Source of the DNA: Phycisphaeraceae bacterium
GTDB taxonomy: Bacteria > Planctomycetota > Phycisphaerae > Phycisphaerales > Phycisphaeraceae
Assembly (NCBI GenBank): GCA_028280965.1
Contig: JANQKT010000193.1
Location: forward strand, 1 to 41,438
Length of the DNA: 41,438 bases
Reading direction: 5' to 3'
The notes beneath the pieces were generated by a model. That model had not been told where the DNA came from, searched no databases, and saw only the letters and a program-made list of their open reading frames with translations. Shown one piece after another: positions 15,384-30,455 of the stretch. Both the position numbers and the translations under genes were made by a program. The first letter of the stretch is position 1, and every line of letters starts with the position of its first letter.

Positions 15384-15484
15384 GGGTGCCACACAGCGAC
15401 CTGTAGGGCGCTGTATGCGAAGACTCTCATACTGTAATTAAGATGACTCACACACAGCGCCCTACGGGTTGCTGTGTGGCACCC
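15384..15484. repeat. REPIN-like inverted-repeat element, copy A
   Basis: A 101-nt element with ~34-nt imperfect inverted arms: it begins GGGTGCCACACAGC and ends GCTGTGTGGCACCC, and each arm contains an AGGGCGCTGT-type core. Relatives lie at 25795-25894 and 27897-27996. It fills most of the 15208-15494 gap between the prepilin gene start and the sulfatase stop. The central spacer differs from that of the other copies, so this copy is older or a different subtype. Confidence 0.85.
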
Positions 15485-25794: not shown

Positions 25795-25894
25795 GGGTGC
25801 CACACCGCGCCCCGCAGGGCGCTGTGTGCGTGTTGTCTGAGATGGATCAAGAAGAGCTCGCACACAGCGCCCTGCGAGCCGCTGTGTGGAACCC
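25795..25894. repeat. REPIN-like inverted-repeat element, copy B
   Basis: A 100-nt element starting GGGTGCCACACCGCG and ending CCGCTGTGTGGAACCC, with arms containing GCAGGGCGCTGTGTGCG and its inverse. The central spacer TGTTGTCTGAGATGGATCAA is identical in copy C (27897-27996), so B and C are recent relatives. Part of the 310-bp gene-free stretch 25752-26061. Confidence 0.88.
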
Positions 25895-27896: not shown

Positions 27897-27996
27897 GGGT
27901 GCCACACCGCGTCCCGCAGGGCGCTGTGTGCGTGTTGTCTGAGATGGATCAAGAGCCGTTCGCACACAGCGCTCTTCGAGCCACTGTGTGGCACCC
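27897..27996. repeat. REPIN-like inverted-repeat element, copy C
   Basis: A 100-nt element starting GGGTGCCACACCGCG and ending CACTGTGTGGCACCC. It is nearly identical to copy B, including the central spacer. It ends 24 nt before the RT stop codon, so it marks the left edge of the AT-rich island. Confidence 0.88.
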
Positions 27997-28019
27997 GGCT
28001 CCAAGTGCAGGGAGAATAC

Positions 28020-28970
28020 CTAAATCTGTTGGTCTACCCAATTAGTAAACGCCAGAATTCCAATTAACTGAGATTTGTTGGTTAACTCAATGTCTTGTTT
28101 TTCAAGTAGAAATTTAGCTTGCCTTGCTCGCCTCCGGATTGCTTTGGGTACGCGTACGTTGCCATCACTAATTCGTAAGCCCAAAAAATGTAAGCAGCTT
28201 GGCTTTGAATATGTTCGTACTTTCTCGCCAGCAATATGCCACATATCTTCTTGAATTATTGCAGATATTCTTTTAGTTAGATCAGCGGGTCTCTGAGTCT
28301 TGCCTGATACGGATATGTCATCTGCGTAACGAGTCAGTCGAAATTTATTTGCCTTGCAATAGTCAGCTAACTTATCATCGGTATCAATAAAAGCAAGATT
28401 TGCAAGAATTGGGCTGGTAGGTGCACCCTGTGGTAATGCACCATTAAGAGTAGTCAAGTCGACCAATAAATGGGATGCCATTCTTGAGTAGCCCAGCCAC
28501 GTAAACACATCAAACACATGCTGATCAGTCACACTGCCAAAAAAGTTCTGAATATCGAGCGATACTATCCAGTTTGAGTTCTGATGGATTTTAGCTGCAG
28601 AGAGGATGGAACGTCCTGGTACAAATCCATGAACGTGTTTCTGAAACTGAATGTGTTTACATAAATTAACTGCGAGCCATTTTTGTATTAATTTCAAAGC
28701 GATGCGAGGTGTAGCAATCGGGCGTTTTTTGTTACCACGCTGTATTGTAAACGTGCGATAGTAATTGCTTGGCTTGCGAGCCATTGCGACGATTAGACTT
28801 GGCGAGACACCCAACAATAGTGCAAGCGATGCAGGAGAAGTTATTGGGGGAAATCCTTGCTGTACTAAAGTAGCAATTTCTTCGTGTTCATGAGCAGGTA
28901 ATTCAGCGTAGGCTACACTTAAGAAAGTTTCTGGATCAGAGAAAGAAATGAGGGGTGGTGGTGTCTTCAT
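28020..28970 (-). CDS. Retron-type reverse transcriptase
   Basis: A 316-residue RT. Motifs in order: YRTFTIQRGNKKRPIATP (70-88), HVHGFVPGRSILSAAKIH (112-129), WIVSLDIQNFFGSV with catalytic Asp139 (motif A), LPQGAPTSPILANLAF (179-194), RYADDISVSG with catalytic Asp217-Asp218, and CLHFLGLRIS in the place of the retron VTG region. The size and the PQGAPTSP and RYADD wording are those of retron RTs rather than group II intron RTs; no maturase or endonuclease domain follows. I chose ATG 28970 (MKTPPPL); the longer reading would run through the structured RNA. It would reverse-transcribe the adjacent ncRNA into msDNA. It is the last gene of the operon. Confidence 0.92.
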   Translation of the reverse strand: MKTPPPLISFSDPETFLSVAYAELPAHEHEEIATLVQQGFPPITSPASLALLLGVSPSLIVAMARKPSNYYRTFTIQRGNKKRPIATPRIALKLIQKWLAVNLCKHIQFQKHVHGFVPGRSILSAAKIHQNSNWIVSLDIQNFFGSVTDQHVFDVFTWLGYSRMASHLLVDLTTLNGALPQGAPTSPILANLAFIDTDDKLADYCKANKFRLTRYADDISVSGKTQRPADLTKRISAIIQEDMWHIAGEKVRTYSKPSCLHFLGLRISDGNVRVPKAIRRRARQAKFLLEKQDIELTNKSQLIGILAFTNWVDQQI

Positions 28971-29131
28971 ACCGAACGCTGTCCAAGGAAGTCCTTGCGG
29001 AAGTGCGGCGGCTAGCGGCAAGCGGCCGTGTCGTCAGGCACGGCCGCTTGCCGCTAGCCGCGCCTTCTGATGGTGACCTTCGCTCACGCAGGAGCGACTC
29101 GCTCCCGAATGCGAATTACCACCACCCCTCA
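28949..29131 (-). ncRNA. Putative retron msr-msd RNA
   Basis: A ~183-nt minus-strand RNA between the winged-helix gene and the RT gene. The ends are a perfect 14-bp inverted repeat: TGAGGGGTGGTGGT read on the minus strand at 29131-29118, and its complement at 28962-28949. They match the a1/a2 stem of retrons. After a1, TTCGC...GCGAA encloses a hairpin GGAGC-GAGTC-GCTCC, a plausible msr. A perfect 23-bp hairpin with an 8-nt loop (29008-29061) is the candidate msd. A small AAGGA/TCCTT hairpin lies near 28988. The a2 arm falls in RT codons 3-8. The branching G and exact ends are not assigned. Confidence 0.8.
29008..29061 (-). other. Perfect 23-bp hairpin, candidate msd stem
   Basis: The arms 29008-29030 and 29039-29061 are exact reverse complements (GCGGCTAGCGGC ... 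GCCGCTAGCCGC) and the loop is TCGTCAGG. It is far more GC-rich than the island around it. In the retron model it is the msd template; alternatively it is a host repeat that landed in the RNA gene. Confidence 0.85.
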
Positions 29132-29138
29132 ATATACT

Positions 29139-29906
29139 CTACCAATTGCGTCTTGCTAAGTCTAGTAACCTTTCAACATCAATACTACGAGGATCTTTTG
29201 ACGAGCCAGGAAGATAACGAATACCTTTAAGAGTTATGATGTGCATACCATCATAGTTGTATTGAAGTAAACCCTCTTTGCGTAATGAGTCAGTTACGCG
29301 TTGCACGTCCTTTTTATTGACGGGACGACCAAGTCTAATAGAAAGGTAATCGCGAATTGATTCTATGCTTGCAGGGCTTTTGACGCGATATGCCCGTAAT
29401 ACAGCCATATTGCCTGGTCGGTCATTTGTGTTAGTCGTAATCAATACAGTTCGCAGAGTTAGATCTGCACGCTTCGCTATTGGCTCAATTGTGTCACTGA
29501 CCTGTTTGGCAATCAGTTCATCGTCGACCGTATATGGCGTCTCAATAGTTAGGCTTATGTCAAAATGACCACTCGTCGTCACGCGAACACTGGTGTTAAC
29601 TACATCATGCGCAATTGTGTGATCAAGGAGTGCTACTATCAATTTCTCGAAATCAGCCAGTGAATCTTGATAAGTGACTTGGAGTTTTATGTTTTCATTT
29701 TTTCTTGAAAGAATGCTCTGTAAGATATTTTCAACACGCCTTCTTTGCCTTGAAGCTTGCTTAATGCTCTTTCCTTTAGAGTTGTATTTGGCTTTATATA
29801 GTATATATGGTGTCAGCTGGGCGGTCTTTAGATCAGACAGGCCTGGGCCCAGCTTGTCTTCGATCAACTTGAGAGTATTTTTTGAGAGGCTACTGTCCGA
29901 GTTCAT
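29139..29906 (-). CDS. Retron accessory protein with C-terminal winged helix
   Basis: A 255-residue protein. The first ~75 residues are basic and helical (NSKGKSIKQASRQRRRVENI). Residues ~80-165 are an alpha/beta region of unknown family (SGHFDISLTIETPYTVDDEL). Residues 177-233 form a winged helix (SIRDYLSIRLGRPVNKKDVQ ... LRKEGLLQYNYDGMHIITLKG). The helix-turn-helix suggests DNA or msDNA binding, the role such proteins have in several retron types. The gene overlaps the upstream HEPN gene by 17 bp and ends 8 bp before the a1 repeat, so all are one transcription unit. What it regulates or senses is inference. Confidence 0.7.
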   Translation of the reverse strand: MNSDSSLSKNTLKLIEDKLGPGLSDLKTAQLTPYILYKAKYNSKGKSIKQASRQRRRVENILQSILSRKNENIKLQVTYQDSLADFEKLIVALLDHTIAHDVVNTSVRVTTSGHFDISLTIETPYTVDDELIAKQVSDTIEPIAKRADLTLRTVLITTNTNDRPGNMAVLRAYRVKSPASIESIRDYLSIRLGRPVNKKDVQRVTDSLRKEGLLQYNYDGMHIITLKGIRYLPGSSKDPRSIDVERLLDLARRNW

Positions 29907-30402
29907 CAGTCCACACTTTCAACAGTTTATTAGCTTGTAGTTCTGCCGTCTTGTACCACCAGCGTGATTCTTTTGCCGTTGTTGCACTTAAGGAATAAGT
30001 GTCATCGAAACATAGAATTTGAATGTCTGCACGATAGTCTGCGTCACATCTAACGTGATATGCTTGCTCAAGTAAGTTAGCCAATTCCTTAATGCTCCCT
30101 CGAATATCGGCAATGTACTTGCCTTGATTGTTGCGAATCATTGGATTGGCTCTTGAGAGTTGGCGGACTCGGAATTCAATGTTGTTTTTGAAACGCCCAC
30201 GGAGATGGTCTGGCATTGCGGAATGCCCGATATTAACTTGGCGCCTTGATACTGTCTCGACTAATTCGCGTACAACATGATATGCTGCGTAGTAATTGCG
30301 ATTGAAAGTAGTTCTATAAAACATGTCTTGGTGAGATTTCGTCTCACACTTAACTTGCTCAAGGTGCTTGGATACTATTGATATTGCTTCGGCGAATTCC
30401 AA
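29890..30402 (-). CDS. HEPN-domain protein, putative retron effector
   Basis: A 170-residue all-helical protein. FNRNYYAAYHVVRELVE (residues 33-49) is typical of HEPN domains and contains R35-X6-H42, matching the catalytic R-X4-6-H of HEPN ribonucleases. A second hallmark, YHVRCDADYRAD (115-126), fits the HxxRxxADY signature of MNT-associated HEPN proteins. No nucleotidyltransferase partner is present. The start is TTG 30402 with GGGGA 5 nt upstream; no in-frame ATG is better placed. It is the first gene of the operon, 53 bp after acnA. An RNase toxin released on phage infection is the likely role, by analogy with other retron effectors. Confidence 0.72.
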   Translation of the reverse strand: MEFAEAISIVSKHLEQVKCETKSHQDMFYRTTFNRNYYAAYHVVRELVETVSRRQVNIGHSAMPDHLRGRFKNNIEFRVRQLSRANPMIRNNQGKYIADIRGSIKELANLLEQAYHVRCDADYRADIQILCFDDTYSLSATTAKESRWWYKTAELQANKLLKVWTDELGQ

Positions 30403-30455
30403 AGTCGTCCCCGCTGAAGATAAGTTGAGTCAAGTGCGGTTATTCATGTAGTCGC

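Follow-up and report, generated by a model that had tools for sequence, protein, structure and literature searches.

Predicted overlap of the a2 arm of the retron RNA with the first codons of the reverse transcriptase gene in type IX retrons

Retron-Kva2 of Klebsiella variicola (PDB entry 36ht; PMC13405049) is the sole type IX retron that we found among PDB structures. In this system the reverse transcriptase (RT) makes msDNA from msd, and RT, msDNA and a winged-helix (WH) protein hold a HEPN dimer inactive (PMC13405049). A phage protein acts as the trigger: by mimicking WH on the msDNA loop it releases HEPN, leading to tRNA cleavage; HEPN residues H64 and R122 are required for defence, and WH residues D197, R200 and K201 touch the msDNA loop (PMC13405049). 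The Kva2 paper makes no mention of an a2 arm overlapping the RT frame (PMC13405049).

Retron-Eco1 (Ec86), of type II-A, has the order effector–ncRNA–RT, with an a1/a2 stem around msr–msd, and shares both features with the locus described here. The a2 arm of Ec86 (locus L133, 2659–2670) ends 6 nt before the ATG at 2677, which we take to be the usual RT start, and hence lies outside the RT frame; the RefSeq RT start is 75 nt downstream of this ATG. At the other end of the RNA, a1 (2501–2514) shares bases with the final codons of the effector ORF, a mirror image of the a2/RT overlap of type IX. In P2-like prophages of Escherichia coli, the Ec86 retron (L133, 1591–3639) and a type IX retron (L131, 2414–4817) occupy the same slot, which runs from the replication endonuclease/DinI-like genes to the portal gene.

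The window analysed here comprises positions 1–41,438 of contig JANQKT010000193.1 of a Phycisphaeraceae bacterium. Homologues of the three Kva2 proteins are encoded in one operon, as in Kva2:

29890–30402, minus strand: HEPN effector, predicted RNase toxin, 170 amino acids, TTG start (PADLOC HEPN_IX, 8.4e-33; Kva2 HEPN, 36ht_I, 1.5e-15)
29139–29906, minus strand: winged-helix (WH/HTH) gene, 255 amino acids (PADLOC HTH_IX, 1.8e-28; Kva2 WH, 36ht_B, 1.3e-4)
28020–28970, minus strand: retron reverse transcriptase, 316 amino acids, YADD motif, ATG at 28970 (PADLOC RT_IX, 9.7e-97; Kva2 RT, 36ht_A, 1.3e-50)

The second-best RT family in PADLOC scored 2.1e-69, against 9.7e-97 for RT_IX, and RYADD is present in the RT sequence. 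Kva2 chains were the top PDB matches for all three proteins, although identity is low (about 35% for RT and 24% for HEPN). By alignment, H60 and R118 of the window HEPN correspond to the catalytic H64 and R122 of Kva2, the WH stretch DSLRKE corresponds to D197..R200 K201, which contact the msDNA loop, and both RTs start with MKTP-x-PL. Assignment to type II-A was rejected: the best RT_II-A model scored 106 bits below RT_IX, and the neighbouring genes are HEPN and WH. By homology, the locus is a type IX retron with the gene order HEPN–WH–ncRNA–RT on a single strand, and adds one member to a class that is already known.

The retron region (28000–30450) is an island of about 42% GC with sharp edges in flanks of about 69% GC, which suggests horizontal acquisition. 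An imperfect palindromic repeat of ~100 bp lies directly downstream of RT (27897–27996); with its other two window copies (25795–25894 and 15384–15484) and matches at about a dozen further genome sites, it appears to represent a small family of non-coding repeats. Searches with HEPN_IX and HTH_IX found no second clear member in several hundred sampled genomes of the window's phylum; type IX therefore appears to be rare there, and the comparison below rests on other phyla. A genome-wide search with the window RT alone returned a single locus (L001), which was discarded as a false match in an unrelated frame. A plasmid search with WH gave no match, scanning viral contigs with a DNA pattern brought up none beyond those already known, and an Rfam search gave sub-threshold chance matches only.

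A repeat search of the window identified a 14-nt inverted repeat, 100% complementary, with TGAGGGGTGGTGGT at 28949–28962 and ACCACCACCCCTCA at 29118–29131 (spacing 155 nt), exactly as given in the initial annotation, where it had been read as the a1/a2 stem of a retron RNA with a2 over RT codons 3–8. Our results agree on both points. Counted from the ATG at 28970 (protein start MKTPPPLISF), a2 (28962–28949) begins at the last base of codon 3 and ends with the first base of codon 8; the type IX genes, a covariance model match and covarying arms support the stem. The predicted parts of the RNA are as follows:

29118–29131, minus strand: a1 arm of the retron RNA, TGAGGGGTGGTGGT (14 bp, fully complementary to a2; pairing kept in relatives)
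29065–29117, minus strand: msr region (alignment with ten type IX RNAs; covarying pairs in the consensus hairpin; covariance model matches)
29008–29061, minus strand: msd template hairpin, 23-bp perfect stem, 8-nt loop (inverted repeat; stem covariation across loci)
28971–29007, minus strand: linker from the msd hairpin to the RT start (read from the sequence)
28949–28962, minus strand: a2 arm of the retron RNA, ACCACCACCCCTCA, within RT codons 3–8 (repeat, class-wide location and RNA-level constraint)

The minus-strand order is HEPN, WH, a1, msr, msd hairpin, RT ATG (28970), a2 and the remaining RT to 28020, and the gap between WH and RT is wholly occupied by the ncRNA, with a1 starting 7 nt past the WH stop and a2 inside RT.

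Ten further type IX RNAs were used as comparators, from a Leisingera plasmid (L035), a Photobacterium plasmid (L036), an E. coli P2-like prophage (L131; near copy, L132) and viral contigs (L037, L039 and L040–L044). RT loci from related genomes were left out of this set, as they had been read in the wrong frame or orientation. A covariance model built from these ten RNAs, the window excluded, gave a single window match at 28947–29129 (minus strand, E 2.5e-13); with the RT coding part omitted and the window again excluded, the single match was at 28984–29129 (minus strand, E 4.6e-13). In the consensus structure, both partners have changed in 21 of the 31 pairs predicted for the msr and msd hairpins. 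The msr contains the hairpin GGGAGCGAGTCGCTCC (29106–29091), GCGAAGGTC and an AGAA motif at 29068–29065, which is the expected end site of reverse transcription. CG is invariant after a1 in all aligned loci (29107–29106 in the window), a candidate position for the conserved priming guanosine at which branching occurs. The linker CTTCCGCAAGG resembles CTTACGAAAGG of L035. The motif TTTGCTAA or TTTGCTTAA stands just before the RT ATG in L035, L037, L039 and L040–L044, and is absent in the window and L036.

The msd loop contains CCT in ten of the 11 loci (the window and nine relatives), the exception being L036 with GCT. By the numbering of Kva2 relatives, CCT is shared with Kva2 and is the predicted complement of the msDNA bases contacted by WH in that system. 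The window loop is CCTGACGA, compared with the CCTTCGAA type in the enterobacterial relatives, and the window stem is more GC-rich and perfectly paired. A highly stable stem between two genes could also be a transcription terminator or attenuator separating WH from RT rather than msd, but the sequence has no T-run after the 23-bp hairpin, the stem covaries, CCT in its loop corresponds to the msDNA loop that Kva2 WH reads, and the RNA is matched by the covariance model; we consider a terminator extremely improbable.

The window a1/a2 helix scored 37, compared with a maximum of 25 among 1000 dinucleotide-preserving shuffles of the upstream region. RNA folding, a check proposed in the initial annotation, gave −117 kcal/mol for the entire 191-nt RNA (z = −11.5), most of it from the msd hairpin. 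Since the repeat is rich in GGT/ACC, comparison gives the better proof: in ten other loci the stem is conserved and covaries, so that the covariation on which the initial annotation had made the stem depend is present across homologues. The low complexity of this proline-coding stretch might otherwise allow the repeat to be a chance product with the real a2 elsewhere, and the conserved start peptide might by itself keep a2 similar. None of the 1000 shuffles reaches the window score, however, different loci pair with different sequences, compensated changes are synonymous, and in most loci no helix of similar strength precedes the ATG (in L044 one is a close second). A chance origin is accordingly rated as barely credible.

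In all 11 type IX loci with both arms readable, the window included, the best long-range helix places a2 within RT codons 1–8: at +1 to +13 in the subgroup starting MRLP or MRFP (L035, L037, L039 and L044), and at +5 to +21 in the MKTP/MNAA subgroup (the window, L036, L040–L043 and L131). Distant loci have arms of different sequence that nevertheless pair. When arms were paired all against all, 0 of 100,000 permutations reached the cognate pairing sum, a figure uncorrected for shared ancestry. The L036 stem by itself is weak, being matched by 14 of 1000 shuffles. In the MRLP/MRFP subgroup all 12 pairs form in all four sequences and four of the 12 have changed on both sides; sliding the partner by 1–3 columns as a control gave no double-sided changes. 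Three of the four affect the third base of a codon: AGG/AGA (Arg), CTT/CTC (Leu) and CCG/CCA (Pro).

A similar constraint is seen in the enterobacterial-type group with the start MKTPLPL, where codons 3–5 (ACG CCA CTA) are identical in six of six RTs. All three degenerate codons lying entirely within a2 are identical here, compared with one of 68 elsewhere (Fisher p 7e-5, indicative for a small group with two near-identical members); the 68 are four- or six-fold degenerate invariant residues beyond RT codon 10. Codon 6 is paired only as far as its second base, and its third position varies freely (A, C or T). As judged from these substitution patterns, selection acts on the RNA, beyond the RT protein alone. 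The comparison confirms, at the level of predicted pairing, that the a2/RT overlap is class-wide in type IX and not an oddity of the window locus. For the window itself, we put the probability of a type IX retron with a2 in RT codons 3–8 at roughly 0.85.

The overlap would vanish if the native RT start lay downstream of a2, with a2 then part of a leader RNA, a possibility raised in the initial annotation. In its favour, the window sequence has no strong Shine–Dalgarno before the ATG. However, no further in-frame ATG, GTG or TTG occurs until codon 52, all 11 aligned loci keep the ATG, and homology extends from residue 1: the PADLOC RT_IX alignment begins there, that to 36ht_A covers residues 1–306 to 1–314, and the Kva2 RT chain in 36ht itself starts MKTPLPL. 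The invariant ATG, the distant next start and the homology make a downstream start very unlikely. From the shared MKTPLPL start and the close relatives of Kva2, we infer that a2 lies in the RT frame of Kva2 too.

The type IX retron of the E. coli P2-like prophage (L131; NZ_CP106924.1, 1145785–1148188) shares the order HEPN–WH–ncRNA–RT. Its a1, GGTAGTGGCGTT, pairs with AACGCCACTACC in RT codons 2–6, so that arm sequence and register differ from those of the window, and a1 begins 15 nt after the WH stop rather than 7. Among the other viral retron loci that have a strong helix, the majority place a2 roughly 3 to 70 nt before the first ATG. In type XII-like RT-TIR loci, which belong to another RT clade and have a single-gene effector, a strong a1/a2 stem is also present and a2, GAGGGTTGAGCCTT or similar (L058, 3267–3281; L064, 1614–1627; L066, 2239–2252), lies across an apparent TTG RT start, the start codon being uncertain. 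In the XI-like locus L078, a2 lies across an ATG, again with the start uncertain. The idea that the overlap is unique to type IX was therefore rejected, as the XII-like loci seem to share it; it is characteristic of type IX and probably not exclusive to it. The initial annotation had presented a2 inside the RT frame as unusual, which holds against most other viral retron loci, where a2 is upstream, but not within type IX, where it is a class trait, nor seemingly in some type XII-like loci. The literature searched contains no statement of the overlap, and the class-wide overlap is apparently previously undescribed; most subscription papers were beyond the reach of the search, so earlier notice is possible.

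By analogy with Kva2, the window RT would prime on msr and copy the msd hairpin into msDNA; RT, msDNA and WH would assemble around the HEPN dimer and keep it inactive; and a phage protein on the msDNA loop would free HEPN, so that tRNA is cut and growth stops. The anatomy of the overlap suggests further steps. Since a2 lies in the ribosome-binding region of RT, one transcript should not be able to close a1/a2 and start RT translation simultaneously. RT bound to the a1/a2 stem could damp its own synthesis, and a ribosome ending WH could cover a1 and open the RT start, so that RT is matched to the ncRNA; in every type IX locus a1 starts 7–15 nt past the WH stop, a distance at which a terminating ribosome could cover it.

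The calculated opening cost of the region around the RT start (−18 to +19) in the window was 25.9 kcal/mol in the native sequence, 15.1 kcal/mol with a1 scrambled and 10.2 kcal/mol without a1, in a computation that leaves out cellular ribosomes and co-transcriptional folding. In most relatives the removal of a1 acted in the same sense. In L042 and L131 the opening cost was hardly altered and in L037 the mean accessibility was unchanged without a1, so strong repression need not be general. On the strength of these computed energies, the competition between the stem and RT translation proposed in the initial annotation is plausible in silico. That the stem limits RT translation, and that WH translation favours RT, is put forward tentatively.

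The overlap may instead be mere genome compaction, in which the 10–14 bases that a2 needs beside the template happen to come from the start of RT, the stem is melted by ribosomes and expression is not regulated by it. The ncRNA fits the gap tightly at either end, tight packing is common, as the Ec86 arms at the effector end and 6 nt before the usual RT ATG illustrate, and the opening energies of L042 and L131 drop little without a1; set against this are the large opening cost in the window and most other loci and the retention of a2 within RT codons 1–8 in two subgroups with different start peptides. We give compaction a little under an even chance. The fuller proposal, that the type IX ncRNA is a translational switch in which a closed or RT-bound stem shuts the RT start and the ribosome finishing WH opens it, keeping the toxin partner, the ncRNA and RT proportionate through a single element that is RNA arm and coding sequence at once, is rather unlikely. 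The opening energies and the a1 spacing fit this switch and simple compaction equally.

The overlap has consequences for the family. In type IX, neither the RNA arm nor the RT N-terminus can be changed by evolution or engineering without regard to the other, as recoding of the first RT codons, or placing RT on another promoter, would break or remove a2. The conserved RT start peptide (MKTP/MRLP) may be explained by bases held through pairing as well as by the protein. For a complex that holds a toxin, the overlap would offer a direct and testable route to balance RT and RNA.
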